Notes under the pieces: generated by a model | Seen by the model: only the letters and a program-made list of their open reading frames with translations | What the model was told of the DNA's origin: nothing | The model's database searches: none | Made by a program: the position numbers and the translations under genes | Part shown: in pieces, positions 4,879-28,915 of the stretch | Layout of the letters: every line of letters begins with the position of its first letter | Numbering within the stretch: position 1 is the first letter of the stretch | Virus record (IMG/VR): IMGVR_UViG_3300042288_001345 | Coordinates: 1-28,915 of that record | Reading direction: 5' to 3' (one strand) | Source of the DNA: a virus | Length of the DNA: 28,915 nt

Positions 4879-5586
4879 TTATTGGAAGGTGGCGGAGTAG
4901 CGGCGAACCTCGCCTCGGCGGAGCCAGGCGTCGTCCATGCGCTGAAGCAAGACGCCTTCGGCGCGGACGAATTGGAACTGGCTCTTGTCGTATTGCCCGT
5001 CCTCGGCCAGCGTCTCGGCCACGGCGTAGAATTTAATGTAGTCCGCCAGGAAAGTCGGGATGCGGTGGCGAAGCCAGAACGTGGTATCTGTCGGGAGGTT
5101 GCCGGTCGTGGCTTGGATTGCCTCGTAGCAGTCGCCGGTCGTGTTGTAATAAACCAAGTCGCCCTTGGCATAAGTCGTGCCGGAGCTAAAAGCCGTGTCG
5201 GTAAACCGGGGAACGGGCAGGGCAAAGAACACATACACATCGCCGGTCGTGTAAGCCGCGTCTGTGATCGTGAGGGCGTCATCCGTGACAACAAACTCCA
5301 GCTCGACGGCGATGCCCGTAGCGGCGGGGTCCGAAGCATACACAGCCGAGACAGCGCCAATCGGCGTGAGGCCAGTTTGGTAGAGCGCAATGCTCCCTGC
5401 CACCACCGCTCTCTGCTCGATTTGCGTGGTGTCGGGCCAATCATAAAATCCCCAAGCCAGCGCGGCCGCCGTCGTCGCATACTCGGCAATGGCCGATGCC
5501 TGCGAAGGCAGCAAACTCTGCGCGGGGTCGATGCCCATGCGCTGAATCACACCATCACGAATCGTGCGGTAGGGAGTGGTCTTCAT
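4879..5586 (-). CDS. Head-tail adaptor/neck protein with carbohydrate-binding-like insert
   Basis: A 235-aa protein whose start overlaps the portal stop (ATGA), the usual place for head-completion or adaptor proteins. The N-terminus (TIRDGVIQRMGIDPAQSL, then an Ala-rich helix) and the C-terminal helices (FLADYIKFYAVAETLAEDGQ) resemble helical neck proteins of podoviruses. In between, about residues 60-165, is a beta-rich part containing YAKGDLVYYNTTGDCYEAIQ and a following TTFWLRH. That order, aromatic-xx-GD-V-x-Y...CYEA...W, is the signature of ChtBD3/CBM5-12-like carbohydrate-binding modules. An adaptor with a surface glycan-binding insert is the simplest reading. Confidence 0.7.
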   Translation of the reverse strand: MKTTPYRTIRDGVIQRMGIDPAQSLLPSQASAIAEYATTAAALAWGFYDWPDTTQIEQRAVVAGSIALYQTGLTPIGAVSAVYASDPAATGIAVELEFVVTDDALTITDAAYTTGDVYVFFALPVPRFTDTAFSSGTTYAKGDLVYYNTTGDCYEAIQATTGNLPTDTTFWLRHRIPTFLADYIKFYAVAETLAEDGQYDKSQFQFVRAEGVLLQRMDDAWLRRGEVRRYSATFQ

Positions 5587-7748
5587 TGCGTGGCTCCTTG
5601 TTGCAACGCGGGCAGCGTGCCTTGTCGGCCGATCTGCGCGTTTTGTTGTTGCTGCATCTGGAAGTTAAAACCCTTCATGCGGGCGTCGATCATGTTGCGG
5701 AAAATCTCATCTTGCTGGTAGCGCTGCTGCACGGCGGGGTTGGCCTGTATGATACCTTGCAGGACTTGGGCGCGGAGCTGGTGGTTCTGCCCTTCGCCTG
5801 GGAGTTCCGGCTCGGTGCCTGCGGCGATCTTCGTGTAGGCCAGTTGCTCCTCGTTGGCCTCGATAGCGGCGGCGGGTCCGGGGTCGCGCACCAACAGGTC
5901 GGCAAGGTTGGGATCCACGGCGGCCATGATAAATTTCACAAGCCCGGCACGGTCGATGACACCGGCGACATCCATTGGCACGATGGCCTCGGAGATATAT
6001 TTCAACTTCACCCCAAGCGCTTCCGCGTCGAGGTTGCGGGAATCCCAATCCACCATGAGGTCAAACTTGCCTTGGATGCTTTCGCGGTCGGCTTCAAAAG
6101 GAATCGACTGCCCGCCAGAGACGCGCAGGATTTGCACCGGCAGCATGTATTGCTGCATGAGCTGGTAGGTTTGGGTGATGATGGCTTTGAAGTCGCGTAG
6201 CCAGCGGTCCACCGTGTCCTGTGTGACGAGAGCGACATAGTTGGGGTCAACTCCCTCGCCTGCCATGCCGAAGTATTCATTCACATCGCGGCGCACGGCG
6301 CGTTCGATCTCGATGGTGCCCTGGTCAAAAGGCGGCGGCTGCATCCAGCCAAACTCATTCGGGCGGCGTTCGGGGATTTGCACGGCCGGTCCAAGGATGA
6401 TGTCCAGCTTGCCACGGTTGGCAGGCACACGCATCGGCGGGAGGATGGCAATTCCGGCGCGGTCTGTGCGGTAGTCGCGCTGGGTCTTAATCTCCGCCTG
6501 CATGGTCGAAACAATCTCAGGGATGCCCCGGGCTTCAAGGATGCACCGGCTCACACGCTCGCGGGCCAGCTCGATGAAAGGATATTCGCCGTGTGTGTAG
6601 GGGGATATCTCCTCCTTGGCAAAGATGTCCACATTCGGGTGCATGACGCGGCACATGACCTTTGTCGCGCCGGTCTTCTCGTCGGTCTCCTTGCTGTAAA
6701 CATGCCAGATCTCGATCAGGTCGCGGTGGTCTTGCCAGAGGATTGAGTCGCGGCGGTTCTGGTTCTGCTGCGAATAGACGGGCCACAGGCTTGCGCCTTT
6801 GTAGTTCTCGGCCTTCTCGTAAAACTCCTGGGGGTAGCCTTCGGTAAGCGTGCGTTCTTCCAGCTCCTCGCAAGTCACCATTTCGCGGCGGGCGATCCAT
6901 GGGGCACGCTGCAAGTCATAGGTGGCAGTCGGGAAAATAATGTCGTTGAAGGGCTCAAGGGCCGTCCACTCGGGCTTGCTCTCGAAGATGTAGGGCTCGG
7001 TGTATTCCACCGTGCCGCCTTCGCGCAGCTTGCGGATATTCGCGGCGGTGCCGGTGCCGGGGGCGAATTGCTCGGCCAGCTCAATGGCGACTTCCTCTTG
7101 GAGCGGGTCCAGAATCGCACCGATAAACATGGCGAGCGGTGAGTTTGGGTCGCCCTGCTCTTGGGCCATCACGATGATGTCTTCGAGGCTGATGGATTTT
7201 TCCTCAATGCGTGTCGTCGTTTTCCAAAACACGCCCATCACGGCGAGACCGTAGGTGGCGCGGATGTTGAGGGCGAGTTCCAGTTCGCGCCGGAGGTCGG
7301 AGGCGCAGTGGGTGAAGAGCATCCATTTCAGCACGCTCTCAGCGGCCGTGCGCGACATAGCGTCGGTTGACTCCACCGGCATCATCTGCAAGCGGGCGGC
7401 AAAGGTGGAGGTAAGGCAAAGCTGGGTCTCGCGGTTGCAAACAAGGTCGGCGAGGCGGATGCGGCTGTCGCTCGCGCCTTCCCAGGGGAAGACATTTTTG
7501 CCGAGGTTCTCAGCCCACTTGCGGCCGTCGGAGGACTGCCCATCCCAGAGCGACATGCGGGTGTCATAGTTCCGGCTGCGGACGCTGGAGAACCAACTGC
7601 CATCGGTGGCGGCTTGCGTGAGCTCGCCCACCCAATACTTTGTGTCGCGGTCTGGCTCGTCGTCTTCGGTCATGTGGAGAAAGAGTTGCCAGAGGCCGCT
7701 TTTGATGCGGTTACGGCCTGCGCGAAATAAATAACCAGGGAAAAACAT
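5583..7748 (-). CDS. Portal protein (P22-like)
   Basis: A 721-aa protein, close in size to the roughly 725-aa P22 portal family. It forms the dodecameric ring at one capsid vertex through which DNA is packaged and ejected. Visible landmarks: an N-terminal helical section with SSDGRKWAENLGKNVFPWEG; a central stem/wing region with WTALEPFNDIIFPTATYD and EIWHVYSKETDEKTGA; PFIELARERVSRCILEARGI; and a Gln-rich C-terminal helix (FQMQQQQNAQIG), which matches the long barrel helix of P22-like portals. The first 25 residues (MFFPGYLFRAGRN) look unlike the rest, so translation may start at the internal Met26 (7673); neither start has a strong ribosome site. A tRNA gene lies just upstream. Confidence 0.9.
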   Translation of the reverse strand: MFFPGYLFRAGRNRIKSGLWQLFLHMTEDDEPDRDTKYWVGELTQAATDGSWFSSVRSRNYDTRMSLWDGQSSDGRKWAENLGKNVFPWEGASDSRIRLADLVCNRETQLCLTSTFAARLQMMPVESTDAMSRTAAESVLKWMLFTHCASDLRRELELALNIRATYGLAVMGVFWKTTTRIEEKSISLEDIIVMAQEQGDPNSPLAMFIGAILDPLQEEVAIELAEQFAPGTGTAANIRKLREGGTVEYTEPYIFESKPEWTALEPFNDIIFPTATYDLQRAPWIARREMVTCEELEERTLTEGYPQEFYEKAENYKGASLWPVYSQQNQNRRDSILWQDHRDLIEIWHVYSKETDEKTGATKVMCRVMHPNVDIFAKEEISPYTHGEYPFIELARERVSRCILEARGIPEIVSTMQAEIKTQRDYRTDRAGIAILPPMRVPANRGKLDIILGPAVQIPERRPNEFGWMQPPPFDQGTIEIERAVRRDVNEYFGMAGEGVDPNYVALVTQDTVDRWLRDFKAIITQTYQLMQQYMLPVQILRVSGGQSIPFEADRESIQGKFDLMVDWDSRNLDAEALGVKLKYISEAIVPMDVAGVIDRAGLVKFIMAAVDPNLADLLVRDPGPAAAIEANEEQLAYTKIAAGTEPELPGEGQNHQLRAQVLQGIIQANPAVQQRYQQDEIFRNMIDARMKGFNFQMQQQQNAQIGRQGTLPALQQGATQ

Positions 7749-7780
7749 AACCCCGCCGCAATGCGTAAGCTGGCAAAATG

Positions 7781-7854
7781 TGGTAGCAGGCCACGGAATT
7801 GAACCGTGTTCTCAAGGGTATGGGCCTTGCGAGTTGCCGTTTCTCTCGCCTGCA
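7781..7854 (-). tRNA. tRNA with CAT anticodon, initiator-like features
   Basis: The minus strand folds as a cloverleaf of 74 bases with encoded CCA. Acceptor pairs 2-7 (GCAGGC with GCCTGC) are perfect, while 1:72 is a T-T mismatch. The D arm is GAG/CTC with GG in the loop, the anticodon stem is CAAGG/CCTTG around loop CCCATAC, the variable loop is AGAA, and the T arm is CACGG/CCGTG with a canonical TTCAATT loop. An unpaired 1:72 position and the A11:U24 pair are hallmarks of bacterial initiator tRNA. Odd points are C33 instead of U33, G8 instead of U8 and only three D-stem pairs. It sits inside the late operon just before the portal gene and is not the source of the attachment site at 22.8 kb. 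Confidence 0.85.
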
Positions 7855-7869
7855 ATGTGAAAATTGGAA

Positions 7870-8217
7870 TCATGCTGCTTTGAGGCCCGGCATGAGGATC
7901 ATGGTCTTGCCTGTGCCACCGCACCGCACGGTGCATTGCGGGAAGTTGCGCTTGAACCAGGCAATGAAATCGGGATCGTTCCAGCAACCGGGCACTTTCC
8001 AGTTCCAGAAGTGGTAGATCTGTGGGTCCACGGAAAGCGTCATAGCGCCCACGCCCTCAATCGAGCGCAGGTCCTGCTTGGCATGGTCGGCAGCGATGAG
8101 GTGCTGGCGGGCGTCGGCCTGCACAGCCTGGGAGTTCCACTGCGCGAAGAGTTCGTTCTTGGCCCCTTCGGCCACTTCGCCAGGGATGTCGCTAAGTGCT
8201 TCTTTGAGGATTTCCAT
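7870..8217 (-). CDS. Hypothetical protein between capsid and portal genes, 115 aa
   Basis: Begins MEILKEALSDIPGEVAEGAKNELF, a helical N-terminus; the C-terminal half has IYHFWNWKVPGCWNDPDF and FPQCTVRCGGTGKTMILM. The GGTGKT string looks like a P-loop at first sight but occurs only 15 residues from the end with no room for a nucleotide-binding fold, so I do not call it an ATPase. AGGGGA lies upstream of the ATG. Its position between major capsid and portal fits a small head protein or assembly factor. Confidence 0.6.
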   Translation of the reverse strand: MEILKEALSDIPGEVAEGAKNELFAQWNSQAVQADARQHLIAADHAKQDLRSIEGVGAMTLSVDPQIYHFWNWKVPGCWNDPDFIAWFKRNFPQCTVRCGGTGKTMILMPGLKAA

Positions 8218-8289: not shown

Positions 8290-9300
8290 TTACGTGGTCG
8301 CTGCGAATTTTCCGAGGACCGAGGGGTTCGAGACCGCTACGCCGAAGATGGCGTCGCAGAAGCCACGGCGGCCACCGCCGCGGTCTTCAAGCTCTTCCAT
8401 GCGGGGCTTGCGGTTGAATCCGATGGAGACGAGATCCATGTCGAGCACGTAGCCACGGGCAGCGGAGACCGCTGATGCCGCGCCATTGGCGAGGTAGGTG
8501 GAAACGTGAAGAGCCAGGATGCCGAAGTCGCCTTCGTAGATGTCAATCGTGTTCACGATCTTCTTGTCTTCCGCGTTGGAATTGAAGGTGCGCACGGTGC
8601 TCATCACGTTGGTCGATGCCGTTGCCGTGCGGATGAAGTTTGTGAACGCACGCTTGAGGGCGACGCCGCAAACAAGGTCGTAGTTGCGGCGGGCACGGCG
8701 CACACTGTAGATCGACTGGAGCACGTCGATCACGTTGCTCTCGGTGAGAGAAGTCGTCGCGGTCGTGTTGATCGAGGCGGCGGGGGTGCGGAACGTGGAG
8801 TCCACGGCGGTCGCGGTGTCGGCCTGCGCGGTGGAGCTGATCCATGAGCCGATGCCACGGGTCTTGTAGGGGTTCGAGCCGGACTGCACTTGGCTGTCGT
8901 TGTCGGAGCCCATGATGGCCTCGATGTCGATTTTCAGCTCAACAAGCGCCTTGGCTGCCGCCTTGTTGAAGGCTTGCTTTTTGCCAACGCCTGCGAGGTC
9001 GGCGACATTCTCAACAAGGTCGTCCACTTGGAACGCCCGGCGCACCTTTTGGATGCGGCCCGAGAGGAGAACGCGGTTGGCGTGCTCGTCGTCGTAGCTG
9101 GAAACGTCGTCGTTAGCGAGGACGCCTGTGGTTTGCGGGTCGGAGTAGCGGTCGGCTGGCCATTGGAAAAGCACGTTGGCTGGTTCCTTGGACTTTTTGC
9201 ACATGGAGAACAGAGGTGTGTCGCCGGGCTCGATGAGAACCATCGCGTCGGAGATGTCCTCGCGCTGGCCTTTGACTGTGGTGATGGGGGTTGCTGCCAT
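8290..9300 (-). CDS. Major capsid protein (SU10/DUF5309-like, HK97 fold)
   Basis: A 336-aa protein forming the icosahedral shell. The start MAATPITTVKGQREDISDAM followed by IEPGDTPLFSMC is the typical opening of the SU10-like/DUF5309 capsid family. Further matches are FQWPADRYSDP, RVLLSGRIQKVRRAFQVDDL (E-loop/N-arm region), LVELKIDIEAIMGSDN, and SNPYKTRGIGSWISS. The C-terminal part (FGILALHVSTYLANG, GYVLDMDLVSIGFNRKPRME, GRRGFCDAIFGVAVSNPSV) fits the A-domain and final strands. Its gene follows the scaffold gene directly, the standard scaffold-capsid order. It likely assembles with the scaffold into a procapsid. Confidence 0.88.
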   Translation of the reverse strand: MAATPITTVKGQREDISDAMVLIEPGDTPLFSMCKKSKEPANVLFQWPADRYSDPQTTGVLANDDVSSYDDEHANRVLLSGRIQKVRRAFQVDDLVENVADLAGVGKKQAFNKAAAKALVELKIDIEAIMGSDNDSQVQSGSNPYKTRGIGSWISSTAQADTATAVDSTFRTPAASINTTATTSLTESNVIDVLQSIYSVRRARRNYDLVCGVALKRAFTNFIRTATASTNVMSTVRTFNSNAEDKKIVNTIDIYEGDFGILALHVSTYLANGAASAVSAARGYVLDMDLVSIGFNRKPRMEELEDRGGGRRGFCDAIFGVAVSNPSVLGKFAATT

Positions 9301-9345: not shown

Positions 9346-10404
9346 TTAGTTGAAAAGTGAGGCGACGAAATTCTCGGCGGCATCACGGTTGCCAGACTTC
9401 TTCAGGGCTTCGAGCGGATCGGATTGGGATTTGGTCTTGGGGGCGGCTGAGGGACTGACAACCTTGGGTGCCATAGCTGGCTTGGCGGCTGCCGGTGCGG
9501 CAGGCTTAGCCTTGGCTGTGGCGGCTTTCTTCTGGATGGCCTCGGCTTGCTGGAAGCGCAGGGCTTGTCCACGAATGGCGTCACCTATGACGAGTTCCAG
9601 ATTCGGTAGCTTGCCGATGCCGGGATACGCTTTCAGCGTAGCCATCATCATCTGGCGGGCTTGGGAATCATCCTGGAACAACTCGGGGTAAGCCTGCCGG
9701 GCTTCAGCCTGGAAACTCTCGCGCTGGGCGAGGTACGTCCGGCGGGCAGGCTCGGCCTTGAGAATCTGGCGGGCAAGGCGCAGGCGTTCTTGAAGCTCTT
9801 GCTTCGTAAACTTGCGCGTGCTGCCGTTTCCCATAGGCACTTCCACTTCGCCGCCTTCGTAGTCCGCCTTCGCAATAAGGTCGGGCACATTGTCGAGCAC
9901 GGTATTGGCTGCGGCCAGTCGGCTTTCCAGCGCCTCGGGCGTGGTGACATCCGCCAACGGATCGGCGGCATCTTGCACCACGATAGGTTGGGCACGGGTG
10001 AGAGCGTCCTTGGCGGCGGTGAGTTCGGCTTGCAGGCTGGTGGCTTGCTCCTCGGCGCTCTTAGCGCGGGCGGTGAGCTTGTCCACTCGCTTGGCGAGCT
10101 TCTTCACAGCGGGGGCTTCGGCGGCTTCGGGGTCTTCTTCTGCGGCGTCGTCTTCGTCCTCGGTGGCGTCTTCGGGTTGTTCGGGATCTTCCGTGGAATC
10201 GGCGTCCGTTTCCGGCGCGTCGGTTTCCTCGGTCTGGTCCTCGGGGTTTATGTCAGTGTTAGTCTCATCCGCGACTGCTTCCTGTGCGGCCTCTTCGGTC
10301 GCCGGAGTCTCATCAATGGTCGGGAGCTTGACTCCCAGCGCGTCGATGACTTCGCCGATGCTGAATCCTGTTTCTGTCTGTTCCATGGTTTTTGTTGCGT
10401 CCAA
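9346..10404 (-). CDS. Capsid scaffolding protein
   Basis: A 352-aa protein. Residues 30-100 are extremely acidic (TEETDAPETDADSTEDPEQP and on). A coiled coil follows (VKKLAKRVDKLTARAKSAEE, LQAELTAAKDALTRA), then a helical section with the Gly-rich turn VEVPMGNGSTRKFTKQELQE, and a basic Ala/Lys/Pro-rich tail ending in a helix (RDAAENFVASLFN). This acidic-coil-basic order immediately upstream of the capsid gene is typical of internal scaffolds, whose basic C-terminal helix contacts the capsid protein. No protease motif is visible, so removal before DNA packaging may be by exit rather than cleavage. Confidence 0.85.
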   Translation of the reverse strand: MDATKTMEQTETGFSIGEVIDALGVKLPTIDETPATEEAAQEAVADETNTDINPEDQTEETDAPETDADSTEDPEQPEDATEDEDDAAEEDPEAAEAPAVKKLAKRVDKLTARAKSAEEQATSLQAELTAAKDALTRAQPIVVQDAADPLADVTTPEALESRLAAANTVLDNVPDLIAKADYEGGEVEVPMGNGSTRKFTKQELQERLRLARQILKAEPARRTYLAQRESFQAEARQAYPELFQDDSQARQMMMATLKAYPGIGKLPNLELVIGDAIRGQALRFQQAEAIQKKAATAKAKPAAPAAAKPAMAPKVVSPSAAPKTKSQSDPLEALKKSGNRDAAENFVASLFN

Positions 10405-11347: not shown

Positions 11348-13051
11348 TCAATAGCTCCCTCCTGGGCGGGCTCGCAGCATGGCAGGGTCTTCGTAGCCCA
11401 CGCCGGAAAGCGTGATGTAGCGGAGGATGTCGATCCAGTCTTTGGTGGCTCCCTTTTTGCCGTCGGCACCGGTCCATGTTTTCAGCGCATAGATGAGATT
11501 CTGACAGCGTTCGGAGATGTAGAGGCGAGGCGAGTTCAGCGCATCCACTGGCGCGTCTTCGTTGTAGGCGAGCCAATCGTTGATGAGCGTGACACCTTCC
11601 ACAATCGCCTGCCCGCTGGTGGCGCGGAAGTCGAGGCCGATGCGGTCGCTGCATTGCTCGATGAGCGTTCGCACGCCTTCCTGCGTCATCGTCGGCGTGT
11701 TGCCGTAGCGGCTATCCATCCAACGCTCAGAGGGCTCGGCGGAGTCGGCTTTCTCGGCAGCGTCGATGATTCGTTTGTAATCCTCAAAGCCAAAGCCCGC
11801 GCAGGCTTTTTGCGCTGGCCCAGGGCGGCCGTCTTGCAGCCTGCCATCCGCCTCAGCCCACGCGCCGGGGTAGCCTACGCCCTCGATGTATTCGATCTGG
11901 TCAGGCCACTCGCGGTAAATCCAGCACCGGCCATCCGGCGTGTAGCGGATCCAAAGCATCGCCCAGGTCTTGCCCTCGCCGGGGTCCACAAAGTGAAAGA
12001 CCGTGCCATCGCCCGGCACCTTGTCGGCAGGCACCACATGCACGCCTTCGCGAAATTTGGGAAACATCGACATCCGGGCCTTGGTCGGAACGCCATAAGC
12101 ACGCATCAGGATGCGCTCGCGGTTGCTCCCGCGTAGCTCGGTCTCCATGGCCTCGGGGTTGCCGTAGGGGTTGTCGGCGGTGTGGAAATAAACGACGCGG
12201 GCTTTCTCGCGGGTGCATTGCTGGATGCGCGGGACTTGCTCCAGGCCGATGAGGTTGCCATCGCGGTAGCGCGGCAGGAGCGGGGCGTCGCATTCTTCCA
12301 AAGTCTTCGCGCCGTCGAGGTATTCTTTGACGGTTGTCGTGTAGCCTTCCACCGGAGTGAAGCCGATGCCGAGTTCACCGTCTCGCGTAAGCAAACGAAA
12401 GCGCAGGGCTTCAAGCCAGTCCGGCGTCACCAATTCGTCGGCCCATACAAAATTCAACTCGGCACCTTCAATCGAGGAAACATCCATCGAATAGAACTTG
12501 AACCAGCACTGCGAGCCATTCGGCAGCACGAAGCTGTTTTCGGTGAAACCGCCCTTCTGCGAGTAGGTGATATTCGCCACCGCGCCCTTCTTGAGCTTGC
12601 CGCTGGCGGAGGGCTTCCACTCTTTCGGCAGGTATTCCCACAAATAGGGCTGTTGGTTTTGAATGGATGCCGCTTCGGTGGATTGCAGGCACCACACTTT
12701 CGCGCCCGGCGTGTTCACCAAATGCTGCATCGCCTTCCTCGCAAAGTAGCGCGACTTGCCCGAGCGGTTGCCGCCCAGGATAAGCAGCTCCGTGACGCCC
12801 TTGCGAAACTTCTCCCGCAGCTCCGCATAAGCCGCATCCGCCCGCTCCCAGGCGGGGTTCAGCCAGCCATAGCGCCAAGGGTCTTCGACCATGCGAGCGA
12901 TCTGCTCCTCCCGCTCGCGGTGTATGGCGAGCAACTGCGCCTCAGTGGCGGCGACTTTCTGGCCTTGATACCGAACAACAAACCGCCCATCGGCCAACCG
13001 GCCTTCGACCTCGATGAGCGGGATAACTGGGTTTTGCGTTTGGGGAATCAT
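11348..13051 (-). CDS. terL: Terminase large subunit
   Basis: A 567-aa DNA-packaging motor. The ATPase domain has Walker A GGNRSGKS (93-100), Walker B FVWADE (201-206) and coupling-type residues LLTRDGELGIGFTP (221-233). The C-terminal RNase H-like nuclease shows FVDPG (Asp356), RWMDSRYGN (Asp446) and DWIDILRY (Asp541), the three-acid pattern expected for headful or cos cutting. It docks on the portal and cleaves concatemers. It starts three bases after the stop of the 94-aa gene. No small-subunit gene is recognised with certainty; the small helical or HTH proteins on either side are candidates. Confidence 0.93.
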   Translation of the reverse strand: MIPQTQNPVIPLIEVEGRLADGRFVVRYQGQKVAATEAQLLAIHREREEQIARMVEDPWRYGWLNPAWERADAAYAELREKFRKGVTELLILGGNRSGKSRYFARKAMQHLVNTPGAKVWCLQSTEAASIQNQQPYLWEYLPKEWKPSASGKLKKGAVANITYSQKGGFTENSFVLPNGSQCWFKFYSMDVSSIEGAELNFVWADELVTPDWLEALRFRLLTRDGELGIGFTPVEGYTTTVKEYLDGAKTLEECDAPLLPRYRDGNLIGLEQVPRIQQCTREKARVVYFHTADNPYGNPEAMETELRGSNRERILMRAYGVPTKARMSMFPKFREGVHVVPADKVPGDGTVFHFVDPGEGKTWAMLWIRYTPDGRCWIYREWPDQIEYIEGVGYPGAWAEADGRLQDGRPGPAQKACAGFGFEDYKRIIDAAEKADSAEPSERWMDSRYGNTPTMTQEGVRTLIEQCSDRIGLDFRATSGQAIVEGVTLINDWLAYNEDAPVDALNSPRLYISERCQNLIYALKTWTGADGKKGATKDWIDILRYITLSGVGYEDPAMLRARPGGSY

Positions 13052-22806: not shown

Positions 22807-22853
22807 GACTCTTAATCAATTGGTTCCGGGTTCGAGTCCCGGGGGGCGCACCA
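22807..22853 (+). other. attP core: 3' part of tRNA-Lys(CTT)
   Basis: From GACTCTTAATCAATTGG to the encoded CCA this matches the 3' portion of a bacterial tRNA-Lys with CTT anticodon: anticodon loop CTCTTAA, T arm CCGGG/CCCGG with loop TTCGAGT, and acceptor end GGGGCGCACCA. The 5' half is absent, since the bases before GACTCTT do not pair. This is the classic attP arrangement that restores the host tRNA gene on integration. Phage genes lie on both sides, so it is attP rather than attL or attR. Confidence 0.8.
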
Positions 22854-22903: not shown

Positions 22904-24121
22904 TTGACTTTCGGGCGTCTAATACGTCTATTCCTTCCGATGAATCCAAACACAAGTGGCCCTCTTAGTGGCCCCCGAAAGGCACAGCGCAAGCATGGTG
23001 AGGCGACGGTTTATTGGGATGAGGAGAAAGGGGCTTGGTATTATCGCGTGCAGGTGGATGGCAAGCGCTACAAACGCAGCACGGAGATTCGTTCCAAGGC
23101 GGAGAAGAAGACGGCGGAGCGCAAGGCGGCCGTCTTAGCGAAGGCGATTCTTGAGAAGGATCAGGTGGCGCTCGACGCGGTAGTGGCCCGCCCAGGGTTT
23201 TCCACGGTGGGGGAATTATTGGACCGCTGGGAAAAGGCAGGCCCGATCAAGAGCGCGCCGGCGGTGTCGGGCCGGTTCGAGCGATATGTTGCGACGGCGC
23301 TTCAGACGGCGCACCCACGCGAGGAGAAGTTGGACCGTGCTCTCGATGGCGAGGTGTTCCGCAAGTGGACGCAGGCAGCGGCGGCGGCGGGGAGGGGAGA
23401 GGATGGCATTCGTTCCGATGTCAATTCCATCAAATCCGTTTTGCAGCCCAGCGTCATGTATGCCTATGCCGATCTGAAATTGCCACCGGTGGAGGCATTT
23501 CGCAGCGTTGTGTTCAGCACCCGGCGCCGCGAGTCGAAGGGCGCTGTGAAGCGTGCCGCTTTCGTGTGCATCCCCGCCGACGTCTTGGCGAGGATGGAGG
23601 CTGCTGCCGAGGCTTTGCGCACCAGCGAGGCGCTGGAGGATCGCCAAGTGTGGGCGGTCTTCGCGCTCATGCGTTGGTGCGGCCTGCGCAACCATGAAAC
23701 GATTGACCTGCGCTGGGATTGGGTTCGCCAAGGCAAGAAAAGTCAGGTCCTCGATTTTACCACCCGCGATCTAGGCGGGGGAAAATTTTACTACCCCAAG
23801 GGGCGGGCAGGTGCCGTGCCAGTGAGGGCCGAGTTGCTTGAGCAGCTACGGGCGGCGTTCCCCGAGAGCGCAGAGTTTGTCATCGCCCGCGAGTTCCAGA
23901 CCGACGCGGAGAAAATCTGCGAGCGGGCGGTGAATCGTTTCGTGGAAAAATTCCTGTCCCGTCGTGGTAAAAAACTGGCCTACAATTTGCGCATGCAGTT
24001 TGGCGCGGAGGTCGCCATGCGCGACGGCTTGGAAGTGGCAAGCCGTATGCTCCGCCATGCCAGCACACAGACAACTTGGGCTTATTACCACGACTTAGTT
24101 ACTGAGCCGGATCCGCTTTAG
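22904..24121 (+). CDS. int: Tyrosine integrase
   Basis: A 405-aa protein. The N-terminal arm-binding part has VYWDEEKGAWYYRVQVDGKR, YKRSTEIRSKAEKKTAERKA; a core-binding helical domain follows. The catalytic domain has box I RWCGLRNHETIDLRW with the first Arg in GLRN, box II YNLRMQFGAEVAMRDG, then MLRHASTQTTWAYYHDL with His and the nucleophilic Tyr. In box II the usual His of HxxR is replaced by Asn (NLR). It lies 50 bases from the tRNA-Lys core, the usual place. An internal Met13 (22940) is an alternative start. The 5' coding region carries the right arm-type repeat, so bound integrase could repress its own gene. It ends overlapping the convergent polyvalent gene by four bases. Confidence 0.92.
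   Translation: MTFGRLIRLFLPMNPNTSGPLSGPRKAQRKHGEATVYWDEEKGAWYYRVQVDGKRYKRSTEIRSKAEKKTAERKAAVLAKAILEKDQVALDAVVARPGFSTVGELLDRWEKAGPIKSAPAVSGRFERYVATALQTAHPREEKLDRALDGEVFRKWTQAAAAAGRGEDGIRSDVNSIKSVLQPSVMYAYADLKLPPVEAFRSVVFSTRRRESKGAVKRAAFVCIPADVLARMEAAAEALRTSEALEDRQVWAVFALMRWCGLRNHETIDLRWDWVRQGKKSQVLDFTTRDLGGGKFYYPKGRAGAVPVRAELLEQLRAAFPESAEFVIAREFQTDAEKICERAVNRFVEKFLSRRGKKLAYNLRMQFGAEVAMRDGLEVASRMLRHASTQTTWAYYHDLVTEPDPL
22956..22975. repeat. Probable integrase arm site, right
   Basis: GTGGCCCTCTTAGTGGCCCC, 18 of 20 bases the same as the left site. Inside the 5' end of int (encodes SGPLSGP), 103 bases right of the core. A partial related copy (GCGGCCCCTTTGGCCC) lies between at about 22860-22876. 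Confidence 0.6.
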
Positions 24122-27100
24122 CGTTGCTTGTAGTATTCGCTTTCTTGGACGAGGGAGCGGATGGCGCTTTGGGCGCTTGAGCGGTTGCCGAGTTCCATGG
24201 AGGTTTCCACTTCGTCCATGGCGTTTCGATAGGCTCGGTTCCACATTCCCAGTTCTTGGTATCTAAATTCCTCACGCTCGCTGCGTTGTTCGCTGCGGGT
24301 TTTGAGGTAGTTGTATTCGGTGCGGAGCCCGTTGACGAAATCTGGAAGGGAGAGACGCACCTTGGCCATGTCCCGCTCGTCGGCCTGGTTCAGCTTGAGA
24401 TCGTTTTGGTAAACTCCCCTGTCGCTGATCTTGAGAAATTTATTCAGCACCGGCGTGGCGCTGATTGTCATTTCCGTGAGGGTGTCGGCCTCGGTGTCGT
24501 AGTTGAAGAAATTTGTGATGCCGGTGGCGCCGAGGGTCCAGCCGAGCATGGGCTTGGTTGCTTCCCATCCCCCGGCGAGCCATTGATCTTCGGAGAGGAT
24601 GTTGCGGTTGCGGAAATCATCCCTTGGGTTGCGGCCGGCCAAGAAGGTTGTCCAGTTTTGGCCGACCTCGATGAGCGTGTTTTGTCCTGGCACTTGCGAG
24701 CTGATGCCTGCGAAGACATCGCCAAGCTGCGGCGCGGTGGGGTCGCCTTTGGCGGAGCGGATCGAAGCGCTTAGGACTTTGCCGACGACGCCATTGATGA
24801 CGCGCAGCCCTTCATCCTGCGGCAGCCGGAGGTAGGCTGTCTTGCCGCCGGTGTCTCCAGTAGAGACATTCCCCAGGGGAAGGACGGCAAAGTTGGTCAT
24901 GTCCCAGTTTGGCACGCGAGAGTAGAGCTTCTGCAATTCTTCGCCGAGGACGCCTTCCTTGGCGAGTGTTTGCATGACGGCTATCAGTCCACCGCCGGTG
25001 AAGAGCCAGGCGAGCCACCATTCCTTGGCGTTCATGTTACGCTCCGCCCCACGGAAATTGCGCTGGAGGGATTCGTAGGAGCGGAGAAAAATGTTGAGGA
25101 ACGGCACAATGGCCCCGGCTGATTGAGCGTGGCGGCCTTTCTTGTAGTAGTTCGGGATGCCGATGTGGTTGCGGATCGTGTTGGCGGCTTGCGGTGCGGG
25201 CATTCCCATATCCTTGACGAGCACCTTGTAGGCCGACGCCTTGGGAAGCATCTGGAGAATCTGCCCGGCAAACTCGATGGCTTTGAGCGGGGCCATGATT
25301 GCCCTGGTTAAAAGATTACGGCTCTTGGAATCTTGGAGGTGAAACTTCCGCAGGATCGCGTCAATACTGTCATCATCGCTCCCCATGCGGCCACCGAAGG
25401 CCGAGTGCGGCCCGCCGGTAGCGGCGCTCTCTACCATCTCGCGCATGAGTTGAGTCTTTCCCACATCTCCTTGAGCCCAATCAATGGACGCTCCCCAGGT
25501 CTCGGGATCGAGGAGGCGCATGACAAACCTTGCCCGGCCTTTAATGCCGCCTGGCATGTTGGTGAGCGAGCGTTGCAAGTCGCGGGCTGGCGACATGAAG
25601 AGCTGGAAAGCGGGGTTGTAGCGAATGATTGCGCCATAGACGAGGCGCTGAAACCCTGTCGAGAGCAGGCGGAGGATCGCATCACGCTCGGCGGGCGACT
25701 TGTCTTCCCACATGGCGGCGTAGCGTTTGGGGATATGAGCGCCCACACGCTGGCCATTTACTTTCCACTCCACCATAGACAATGCCGAATCCTTGGGAGG
25801 CTGCGGCTCCATGGTTTTGCCGTTGTATTTCATCGGCGCAGCGGTGACGAGCTCGGGCGATGTCTGCCTGATTACCCGCACGGCCTCCCGGGTGAATCGG
25901 TTGTTCTGTGCGGCGCGGTGGATGCTTATGACCTTGAGCACCGTTTGCTGGAGAGGGTCGGCGATTTCCTTGAAGGTGCCCACCTGCTTGCGGATCGTTG
26001 AAGGAAGATACTCTTGGACATATTCCAGCGGAGTGAACGCGGCGTAGTTGTCCTTGTTTGCGCTGATCGTCTTCCACAGCTCTGCGGAGAAAAGGCCGGA
26101 TTGATTCGCGTCTTCCATGATGGAATAAATGACATCACGAAACCCGCTTACGGCGGTTTCCAGCGCGGCGTAGCCCTCGGGACCAAGCGTTACTTGCAGC
26201 CTGGCAAGCGCTTCCCTTGCTGTCCGGTCTGTCTCGCCGCCGGGGTTGAACATGACTGCGCGGCCGGTCTCGCCGACGACTTCCATTTGCCCGTCGATCT
26301 CTCGGGTTACTTCGAGGCGCTCATTGGCGATGCGGTGGTATTTGAGGAAGATACCGAAGTTTTCGCGGGCGACACCGGCTGCATCGAGGCTTTGGTAGAG
26401 ACGGCCTATGTCGGCCAGCTTGACTTGAAGTTTACTTTCGGCGAGCGGATGCTCCTCGGTGAGCCAGCGGATGCTGTCCTCTTGCGCTGGCGTGATCTTC
26501 CCGGCAGCGCGTGCCTTTGCGGCAGAATCAATGATTGGCTGGTAGATATTCCAATACTGGTCTTTGAGATTTTCCCACCATCCGGTGAGGCTGGCGCGGC
26601 GGGCTTGAGCGGCGGCGCTTTTGCTAATGAAAATCTCGGCACCGGCTTTGAATGCCTCCATGTCTCGGGCGAGGCGCTTATCCAGCACGGCGTCGCGGCC
26701 TTTGCTGATGCGGTCGTAGATGTCCACCAGCTTGGCTTTGACTTGGGGGCGGGAGTCGAGGTTGTTCCAGAAGGTATCGTAGAAAATCGGGGCGCGGGCT
26801 TTGAGGTCGGCGGGGCTGTTGAGGAGCACGCTCATGGCGTCGGCGAAGAGTTCCTCGGAGCTGAAGCGGTAGGCGAGGTGTTGCGGCGTGGCTCGAGTAA
26901 TGTCGAAGGGCTTCCACCATTTTGTCAGGTCGATGAGTTCTTGGCGGATGTATTTGAGGTCGGCCACATTTCGGGCGTTCATCTCGGCACGCATGGCGGC
27001 GTGGAAGGCTTCGCGGAGTTCGTCTTGGGTGGGCTCGCGTCCGCCGACGGTCTGCGTTTCCTCGCGGGTGTTGGTCCCGATCTGCTCGCCTTGCACTTGG

Positions 27101-28915
27101 AACTTTGCCAGGCGTGAGTCGAGGATTCCTTTCATGGCCTGCTTGACGATGTTGGCTTTGGTAGCTCCGTCTTGCCGGGCGAACCAATCGTAGAGTTCCG
27201 GCCACTGTTCGCGGGCGTCGAGGCCGAAGAGTCCTTTGACGATTTCGGGGGTCACGCCGCTCTGTGCGTAGATGGGTTCGTTGACGATTACCTTGCGCAC
27301 TTCGCCTGCGAGAGAGGCGCGGAGGTCGGCTTCGGCTTTCTGGCGTATGGCTTCGCGTTGCTTGCTGGTGATGGGATTGCCTGCCGCTTCATTTGGATCC
27401 AGCGGCACGCTGTGCTTGAGCGTCTTCACCCCCGCAATGATTCCCAGGAGATTCCCCTTCTGCATGCGGAAGTCATCCATGAATTGGATGAAATGCCCGA
27501 TCTCGTGCATGAAGGTCATCATGGCCGAGGCTTCGCCCCCGGCTTTGATGAGGTCGGGGTGCAGGGTGATGACGCCTTGGCCGTTCGGGCTGAAACTCCC
27601 CAGCGCATTCTGCTTGCGTGGCACGCGCACCGTAGGAAAGTCGCCGGAGAGGGATTTGACAAACTCCACCGCCTCGGGCATCTCCACCACCGGCACTTTG
27701 TCCAGGCCGCCGAGTATGAGCGGCATGGTCCAGGTGCCATTCATGGCCCGCACTACGCCCACGGCATCGGGGTAGTCGGCGAAAACTTGGGCGTCGTTGT
27801 AGGTATTGAGCGCGGGCTTGGGGATGGTGGCCGCTGCGGGCATGATTGGCGCTTGTGGTCCGGCGTCGGCCATCGACTTGCTGCGAGGGCGGGACGGGCC
27901 TGCGTCAAACATCGAGGGCGTGCTGTCGTAGCCGTCCTTGATTGCGGCGGCGCGGCGGGCGGCCTCGGTGTCTTCGGCGCTGGCAGGGGTGGCTGGCGGC
28001 GGCGGCTCGCTGGTGAGGTTGAACGGGTCTTGCGTCGGCGTGAAAAGCGGCACTTGCTCTTCCCCAAATGCCAGCACTCGCACCTCGGCCAGCGTAGCCG
28101 GATCGTCGAGGAAGTTTACATACCTTTCGCGGGCCTGTTGCAGCTCGGCGATCTTTGCCAGGATGGCCTCGGGATTTTTGACATCCACTCCCATTTCGCG
28201 GGCGGCTTCGGGTCGTTTCACAGCGCCTTTTACGCTGAGAATTTGATTGTCGATGACTTGGATGCGGGCTTGGCTGGCCTTTACCAATGCGACGGCCTTG
28301 TTGAGGTTGTCATCCGAGTTGCCAAAGAGGTCGCCTTGCTTGGCGGACGGAGACTTGGCCCGCTGGCTGGTGCGGATGAGTTGAGTCAGCGCCTCGGGGG
28401 AGAAGTCCTTGGCGTAGGTGATGCCTATGCGTTGCAGCTCGACATCGCGGGGGGCAGCGACGGCTATAGCTTCGGCTTTTGCGTCGGGTATTCGCCCTCC
28501 TTGATGTAGCGCGTAGAGATCATCCGTGCCCATCGCCCCGATTGAGAATCCGGCACGTCCTTTAGCCCTCGAAAGAAGGCTTCTCTCTGTTGCTTGGTCA
28601 TAGGTGAGTCCGGCGTTTCGGAAGTAGCTGGAGTAGTCTTTGGTAGTTCCTTGTCCATCACGGATATTGAGTTCTGCATCTAATGTTAGTGCGTCTTGTT
28701 TGGTAAAGCCATCGGCTTCATTAAAAATTTGGGTAGGTATTGTCTCCTCTTGATTTCTGCGGAAGAGGTCCAGCCGGTGGCGGCCACTTATAACTTCGAC
28801 ATCTCCATTGAGTCTTCGCCAGGCAATGATTGGAGCAAGTCCACGCCTATCAACTTTCCCCTGTAGAGCTTCGCCCTGCACTACACCAGTCTTTGGGTCG
28901 GCATTCTCCTTAAAA
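24118..28915 (-). CDS. Giant polyvalent protein (ParB-like, HExxH peptidase, helical C-terminus), 5' end missing
   Basis: More than 1590 residues; the frame stays open to the right edge (FKENADPKTGVV precedes the first internal GTG at 28881), so the true start is outside. Numbering from that GTG: 10-110 is ParB-like (EVISGRHRLDLFRR with GRHR, as in ParB-type CTP/nuclease folds). 300-330 is a linker with DGYDSTPSMFDAGPS, shared with the RadC-like protein. 440-470 carries MMTFMHEIGHFIQFMDDF, a zinc peptidase HExxH, with a likely third ligand in SEELFADAMSVLL (about 676-684). The rest is long helices, one near-hydrophobic stretch (WWLAWLFTGGGLIAVMQTLA), and a section resembling 'large polyvalent protein-associated' domains (NHIGIPNYYKKGRHAQ). 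Polyvalent proteins are described as being ejected with the DNA to counter host defence. It ends convergent with int, sharing four bases. Confidence 0.85.
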   Translation of the reverse strand, partial: FKENADPKTGVVQGEALQGKVDRRGLAPIIAWRRLNGDVEVISGRHRLDLFRRNQEETIPTQIFNEADGFTKQDALTLDAELNIRDGQGTTKDYSSYFRNAGLTYDQATERSLLSRAKGRAGFSIGAMGTDDLYALHQGGRIPDAKAEAIAVAAPRDVELQRIGITYAKDFSPEALTQLIRTSQRAKSPSAKQGDLFGNSDDNLNKAVALVKASQARIQVIDNQILSVKGAVKRPEAAREMGVDVKNPEAILAKIAELQQARERYVNFLDDPATLAEVRVLAFGEEQVPLFTPTQDPFNLTSEPPPPATPASAEDTEAARRAAAIKDGYDSTPSMFDAGPSRPRSKSMADAGPQAPIMPAAATIPKPALNTYNDAQVFADYPDAVGVVRAMNGTWTMPLILGGLDKVPVVEMPEAVEFVKSLSGDFPTVRVPRKQNALGSFSPNGQGVITLHPDLIKAGGEASAMMTFMHEIGHFIQFMDDFRMQKGNLLGIIAGVKTLKHSVPLDPNEAAGNPITSKQREAIRQKAEADLRASLAGEVRKVIVNEPIYAQSGVTPEIVKGLFGLDAREQWPELYDWFARQDGATKANIVKQAMKGILDSRLAKFQVQGEQIGTNTREETQTVGGREPTQDELREAFHAAMRAEMNARNVADLKYIRQELIDLTKWWKPFDITRATPQHLAYRFSSEELFADAMSVLLNSPADLKARAPIFYDTFWNNLDSRPQVKAKLVDIYDRISKGRDAVLDKRLARDMEAFKAGAEIFISKSAAAQARRASLTGWWENLKDQYWNIYQPIIDSAAKARAAGKITPAQEDSIRWLTEEHPLAESKLQVKLADIGRLYQSLDAAGVARENFGIFLKYHRIANERLEVTREIDGQMEVVGETGRAVMFNPGGETDRTAREALARLQVTLGPEGYAALETAVSGFRDVIYSIMEDANQSGLFSAELWKTISANKDNYAAFTPLEYVQEYLPSTIRKQVGTFKEIADPLQQTVLKVISIHRAAQNNRFTREAVRVIRQTSPELVTAAPMKYNGKTMEPQPPKDSALSMVEWKVNGQRVGAHIPKRYAAMWEDKSPAERDAILRLLSTGFQRLVYGAIIRYNPAFQLFMSPARDLQRSLTNMPGGIKGRARFVMRLLDPETWGASIDWAQGDVGKTQLMREMVESAATGGPHSAFGGRMGSDDDSIDAILRKFHLQDSKSRNLLTRAIMAPLKAIEFAGQILQMLPKASAYKVLVKDMGMPAPQAANTIRNHIGIPNYYKKGRHAQSAGAIVPFLNIFLRSYESLQRNFRGAERNMNAKEWWLAWLFTGGGLIAVMQTLAKEGVLGEELQKLYSRVPNWDMTNFAVLPLGNVSTGDTGGKTAYLRLPQDEGLRVINGVVGKVLSASIRSAKGDPTAPQLGDVFAGISSQVPGQNTLIEVGQNWTTFLAGRNPRDDFRNRNILSEDQWLAGGWEATKPMLGWTLGATGITNFFNYDTEADTLTEMTISATPVLNKFLKISDRGVYQNDLKLNQADERDMAKVRLSLPDFVNGLRTEYNYLKTRSEQRSEREEFRYQELGMWNRAYRNAMDEVETSMELGNRSSAQSAIRSLVQESEYYKQR

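Follow-up and report, generated by a model that had tools for sequence, protein, structure and literature searches.

An initiator-like tRNA gene with an altered anticodon loop among the head genes of a phage likely to infect Verrucomicrobiota

Introduction

The tRNAs of phages are usually discussed with regard to elongation codons. A solitary initiator tRNA in a late operon, if functional, would act on the first step of every protein, and the presence of such a gene raises the question of what it is and what it does there. The gene considered here lies in a 28,915-nucleotide stretch of viral DNA (the window; positions 1 to 28,915 of IMG/VR record IMGVR_UViG_3300042288_001345). From its sequence it is best read as an initiator of the fMet type in its Verrucomicrobiota form, and a function in initiation, all variants taken together, is the reading held with fairly good confidence. 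Initiator-like tRNAs of phages are already known as such. As far as the open-access literature shows, a Verrucomicrobiota-type initiator with C33 is new, and earlier reports may exist. Also new are the recurrent placement of a C33 tRNA beside the capsid genes of three types of phage, the gain and loss of this tRNA at a single site, and a wide but pair-avoiding variation at 1:72.

The tRNA gene and its surroundings

ARAGORN finds a single tRNA in the window, a tRNA-Met(cat) on the minus strand, which bears out an earlier note that had called a tRNA(CAT) at 7781-7854. An Rfam search of the stretch and record places the tRNA family RF00005 at 7854-7784 with 42.7 bits, where the gathering score is 29. 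The default whole-window gathering scan missed it, which means that detection depends on the search filters. Since a record-wide RF00005 search also missed a second allele, presence and absence were scored by ARAGORN together with sequence patterns, and Rfam-type family counts of phage tRNAs may be too low. The features to which the argument refers are as follows.

11348..13051, minus: terminase large subunit (phrog_2, E 4.9e-21; Pfam Terminase_6N)
9346..10404, minus: probable scaffold protein gene (by position; phiM5 has the same arrangement upstream of its capsid gene)
8290..9300, minus: major capsid protein (phrog_1328 major head protein, E 1.1e-33)
7870..8217, minus: 115-aa gene directly upstream of the tRNA (ORF conserved in nearly all relatives)
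7781..7854, minus: putative initiator-type tRNA(CAT) with CCA encoded at 7783-7781 (ARAGORN; RF00005; conserved in relatives)
7680..7780, minus: conserved spacer that separates tRNA and portal and contains an inverted repeat (arms 7770-7776 and 7686-7692; intergenic comparison)
5583..7748, minus: portal protein ORF, 721 aa (homologue in Phage C75C1, 28% over 702 aa; matching records annotated 'portal protein')
22807..22850, plus: probable attP core (43/44 match with the 3' part of a tRNA-Lys(CTT) from the host)
22904..24121, plus: tyrosine integrase (phrog_1, E 1.5e-16; Pfam Phage_integrase)

The minus strand thus runs from the terminase through the probable scaffold, capsid and 115-aa genes to the tRNA and the 721-aa ORF. 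As that ORF is a portal homologue, the order head gene, tRNA, portal on one strand stands as first described. Neither the scaffold candidate nor the 115-aa gene matched a PHROG or Pfam family. The true start of the portal is probably Met26, at 7673, with homology beginning at residue 32, and the ORF looks 25 residues too long owing to the spacer at its start. This spacer, with its repeat TTGCCAG...CTGGCAA and an inner repeat of GGCCG.../...CGGCC type, is kept in many relatives that have no tRNA, and the stability of its predicted hairpin was not above that of shuffles. The minus strand of the tRNA region yielded no sigma-70-like promoter, and we therefore infer that the tRNA is co-transcribed with the operon. 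On the plus strand, the attP-like stretch sits 53 bp before the integrase; further on, an ORF of at least 1598 aa (24118-28914) runs off the end of the window, with only a weak ParB-like PHROG match and no Pfam match above the cut-off.

Structure and identity of the tRNA

Read 5'-3' on the minus strand, the gene is TGCAGGC GA GAG AAACGGCAA CTC G CAAGG CCCATAC CCTTG AGAA CACGG TTCAATT CCGTG GCCTGCT A CCA. The unpaired U1·U72 and the A11:U24 of the GAG/CTC stem, the two hallmarks on which the earlier note had relied, can be read directly, as can A73 and the CAU anticodon. The anticodon arm has A29:U41, G30:C40 and G31:C39 below a CCCAUAC loop (C33, C38), so that two of the three classical G:C pairs (30:40 and 31:39) are present and 29:41 is A:U. 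The core is irregular: G8 replaces U8, A13·A22 is unpaired, the D stem has 3 bp, the variable loop has 4 nt and A15 faces a purine at 48, so the U8, R15:Y48 and 4-bp D stem of general tRNA are all absent. The D arm is open in the minimum-energy fold and the Rfam score is low relative to host tRNAs; the cloverleaf and T arm are intact despite the irregular core. The fold is more than chance, since the whole gene is identical in nine other contigs (exact 33-mer search), occupies one synteny position and shows a compensatory change from A28:U42 to G28:C42.

The host phylum is likely Verrucomicrobiota, as judged from the relatives of the capsid gene, the initiator signature and an attP that copies a tRNA-Lys of the host. 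Among genomes collected at one per GTDB species, capsid relatives occur only in two Verrucomicrobia MAGs, an assignment subject to the caveat of MAG binning. The tRNA-Lys(CTT) that matches the attP belongs to one of these two, and the 30-nt attP core occurs in 2 of 59 sampled Verrucomicrobiota genomes. One of the patterns used on host initiators left positions 32, 33 and 38 free. In the 49 Verrucomicrobiota loci obtained, 1:72 is U1·U72 (35), C1·U72 (11), C·C (2) or U:A (1), and hence unpaired in 48. All 49 have A29:U41, A73 and the loop CTCATAA, with U33 and A38, so the rule of three G:C pairs at 29-31:39-41 fails in these initiators. On this comparison U1·U72 and A29:U41 belong to the host type of initiator and C33 and C38 are peculiar to the phage; the C33 noticed earlier is thus real and phage-specific. 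The suspicion that C33 might be a host trait came from one locus (L153), whose tRNA proved to lie among phage genes. The chromosomal tRNA(fMet) genes share with the phage tRNA the U1·U72 or C1·U72, A11:U24, A29:U41/G30:C40/G31:C39, A73 and CCA, and differ from it in U33, A38, U8, C13:G22 and a 5-nt variable loop. Animal initiator tRNA also has C33 instead of U33 (PMC9023262), a one-base convergence with the window tRNA and not relatedness.

The case for an initiator is built on the match of U1·U72, A11:U24, A29:U41 and A73 to Verrucomicrobiota initiator genes. In the same MAGs, the genes for elongator Met and Ile2 tRNAs carry G1:C72 and C11:G24, the elongators (L109, L143) with GGGGG...CCCCC and the Ile2 genes (L130, L141) with GCCAGGG...CCTGGC, whereas the phage tRNA has neither pair; both identities were rejected on these grounds. 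Identity over the whole sequence discriminates weakly (49 identical positions with the host initiator over 75 aligned, 46 with the elongator, 41 with Ile2), and the assignment consequently rests on the identity elements. The initiator type proposed earlier from two hallmarks is therefore strengthened by A29:U41, A73 and the comparison with 49 host fMet loci. One further observation concerns a 57-kb Verrucomicrobia MAG contig (G021:C79), which carries two different initiator-like tRNA(CAT) genes (L241 230-303 and L154 8581-8651), both among phage-like genes.

Gain and loss in the capsid family

The sample comprised 79 capsid relatives and the window, of which 74 phages were readable at the tRNA site. 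The tRNA is present in 20 and absent from 54, always at one site, and empty sites are visible when the intergenic regions of tRNA-less relatives are compared. The capsid tree demands 11 gains or losses, at least 9 of them forced by well-supported branches, a count that recombination may inflate. When the window is compared with six relatives that carry the identical tRNA, 28-39% of the fourfold sites in the capsid gene differ; taken over every pair with identical tRNAs, the difference averages 26% and reaches 47% at most. Such identity in the face of capsid divergence points to purifying selection, recent cassette exchange, or both, and recent recombinational spread could contribute to it. Four alleles occur in the family, differing by the compensatory change at 28:42, by C33 or U33 and by C38 or A38. 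Each allele keeps C33 and/or C38 (L013 has U33, L039 has A38). One tRNA-less relative (contig L127) has a PIN-domain, VapC-like gene (1052-1618; G020:C4, about 45.2 kb) some 8 kb upstream of its terminase.

Initiator-type tRNAs in other phages

IMG/VR was searched with a pattern in which the A11:U24 stem and anticodon were fixed and 1:72, 73 and 38 were free, yielding 89 stretches and about 60 distinct intact initiator-type tRNAs. The earlier statement that such tRNAs are uncommon in phages is fair in that, out of 50,697 phage records, 345 contain a match to the E. coli initiator (E<=1e-3), which reaches >=80% identity in 147; it needs to be qualified by the roughly 60 distinct forms in IMG/VR. 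Stems covary across the set. Position 1:72 is CU (15), CA (13), UU (10-11), AA (6), UA (6), GA (3), UG (2), UC (2), AC (2) or CC (1), a mismatch in 53/61 and otherwise U:A or U·G, never G:C, C:G or A1:U72. A73 is found in all 60 tabulated tRNAs, and position 38 is A in 36, C in 20 and U in 4. The phages thus provide a natural mutational test, in which 1:72 varies widely and strong pairs are avoided as the formylation rule predicts. Pair avoidance and universal A73, both demanded by formylation, count for an initiator. The anticodon loop is normal in 27 of the 60; among alleles with a 4-nt variable loop it differs from that of the host in 11/11, as against 0/49 host loci. L164, L180, L184, L225 and L228 are nearly identical A1·A72 initiator-like tRNAs with the loop TTCATAC, several on contigs with isolate-type IMG numbers that are probably prophages.

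All ten C33 alleles have U72. One such tRNA (L154) lies beside a phrog_3437 capsid gene in an HTVC010P-type phage, and three others (L168, L222, L231) lie just downstream of phrog_1005 capsid genes, with a terminator-like hairpin after the tRNA; searched for in Verrucomicrobiota, the phrog_1005 capsid had distant matches only. These four resemble the window tRNA in C33, an unpaired 1:72, A11:U24, a short variable loop and capsid-side placement, and differ in the loop CCCATAA (A38), in U8, in an intact A13:U22 and in their unrelated capsid families. The wider set does not support a place beside the capsid gene as typical of phage initiators in general, the recognisable flanking genes being mostly regulators, methyltransferases and ParB-like genes; such a place is claimed only for the window's family, the two other C33 phage types and phiM5. 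In L186, L213, L214 and L219, a C33 tRNA and a terminator-like hairpin lie among genes with a repeated 'NLKPALRELAARS' peptide in common, and this looks like an expanding cassette of gene and tRNA.

The sole annotated match of the DNA search was Sinorhizobium phage phiM5 (MF074189, 7352-7426), a LUZ24-like podovirus with a solitary annotated tRNA-Met directly downstream of its major capsid gene. Its tRNA is unlike that of the window, with U1:A72, G11:C24 in place of A11:U24, U33 and U31·U39, and its host belongs to the Alphaproteobacteria. Larger phages (Caulobacter CcrSC, Stenotrophomonas QDWS359) likewise carry initiator-like tRNA-Met or tRNA-fMet genes, which are closer to normal bacterial initiators than is the window tRNA.

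Function of the tRNA

Raised late initiation and the replacement of a cleaved host initiator, both suggested in the earlier note, are plausible candidate roles. The explanation preferred here, at not quite even chances, is that the gene encodes a functional phage initiator that supplies late initiation and whose C33/C38 loop escapes a host nuclease. The tRNA would be co-transcribed with the capsid and portal genes and then cut out of the late mRNA, charged by MetRS by way of CAU and A73, and formylated by a formyltransferase acting through the unpaired 1:72 and A11:U24. It would then enter the ribosomal P site at start codons late in infection, with C33 and C38 probably shielding it from a VapC-like nuclease of the host that cleaves the initiator loop. 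We infer all of these steps, from operon transcription through charging, formylation and initiation to nuclease escape. In favour of this explanation are the covariation of stems, the encoded CCA, the identical tRNA in phages with divergent capsids and the recurrence of C33/U72 tRNAs beside unrelated capsid genes; the irregular core, the low Rfam score and the absence from 54/74 phages count against it.

For nuclease escape in particular, the uniform CTCATAA loop of the host can be set against the C33 and/or C38 of the window's family, together with the PIN proteins of the two MAGs that have capsid relatives (8 and 22). Against this, PIN proteins are common, and we know of no nuclease acting on the initiator in Verrucomicrobiota. 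The cut that enteric VapC makes in the initiator lies between A38 and C39 (PMC4105405), and the phage's C38 falls at this site, a nuclease of that kind in the host being hypothetical. Phage tRNAs elsewhere carry anticodon-loop changes at nuclease sites, and phages are reported to avoid tRNA-fMet in general where it is a target of VapC (PMC10264068). The window tRNA is like those nuclease-evading tRNAs in that its loop is altered relative to the host; in contrast to the reported avoidance, initiator-type tRNAs are here carried by many phages, often with a changed loop. Both kinds of evidence, the enteric site and the loop-changed tRNAs of other phages, speak for escape, while the fact that neither loop change is obligatory (U33 in L013, A38 in L039, normal loops in 27/60) speaks against it.

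The phage tRNA may keep protein synthesis starting when the host initiator is scarce or cut. A bolder extension, possible but speculative, is that a capsid-linked initiator lineage with C33, and often C38, moves among unrelated Verrucomicrobiota phages and replaces a destroyed host initiator, late translation then running on a private, nuclease-proof initiator. With C33 tRNAs recurring beside capsid genes and loops altered at the VapC site, the depletion of initiators as an antiphage strategy becomes open to direct test.

Ranking close behind nuclease escape is a working initiator that provides extra dosage only, a tentative alternative in which expression together with the capsid gene enlarges the supply of initiator at the peak of late translation, and C33 and C38, unconnected with nucleases, are either tolerated or serve to tune decoding. 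This would fit a tRNA that adjoins the capsid gene, or is separated from it by one gene, in the window's family, the phrog_1005 and HTVC010P-type phages and phiM5, and the normal loop of nearly half of the phage initiators; it leaves unexplained the consistent loop change in alleles with a 4-nt variable loop, and most relatives do without the tRNA. It is unlikely that the fold serves purely to process or stabilise the late mRNA, as in tRNA punctuation by RNase P/RNase Z, with a role in translation unnecessary. The intergenic place next to capsid genes and the hairpin in phrog_1005 phages would suit such an element, yet it needs no CAU anticodon, unpaired 1:72, A73 or CCA, the first three of which are kept across diverse phages. 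A decaying, drifting tRNA captured from the host is still less probable: the irregular core, low score and frequent absence would be expected of one, but no substitution has accompanied large fourfold divergence of the capsid gene, and the change at 28:42 is compensatory.

That the tRNA reads internal Met codons, or Ile AUA after lysidine modification as the earlier note had allowed, would fit its CAT anticodon and is nevertheless very improbable, as the phage tRNA lacks the G1:C72 and C11:G24 carried by the host's elongator and Ile2 genes. Finally, the phage has an integrase and tRNA genes are common attachment sites, but a role of this tRNA as the prophage attachment site is scarcely credible and was rejected, because its longest unbroken match to any host initiator locus is 13 bases and a better attP, the 43/44 match to host tRNA-Lys(CTT), adjoins the integrase.
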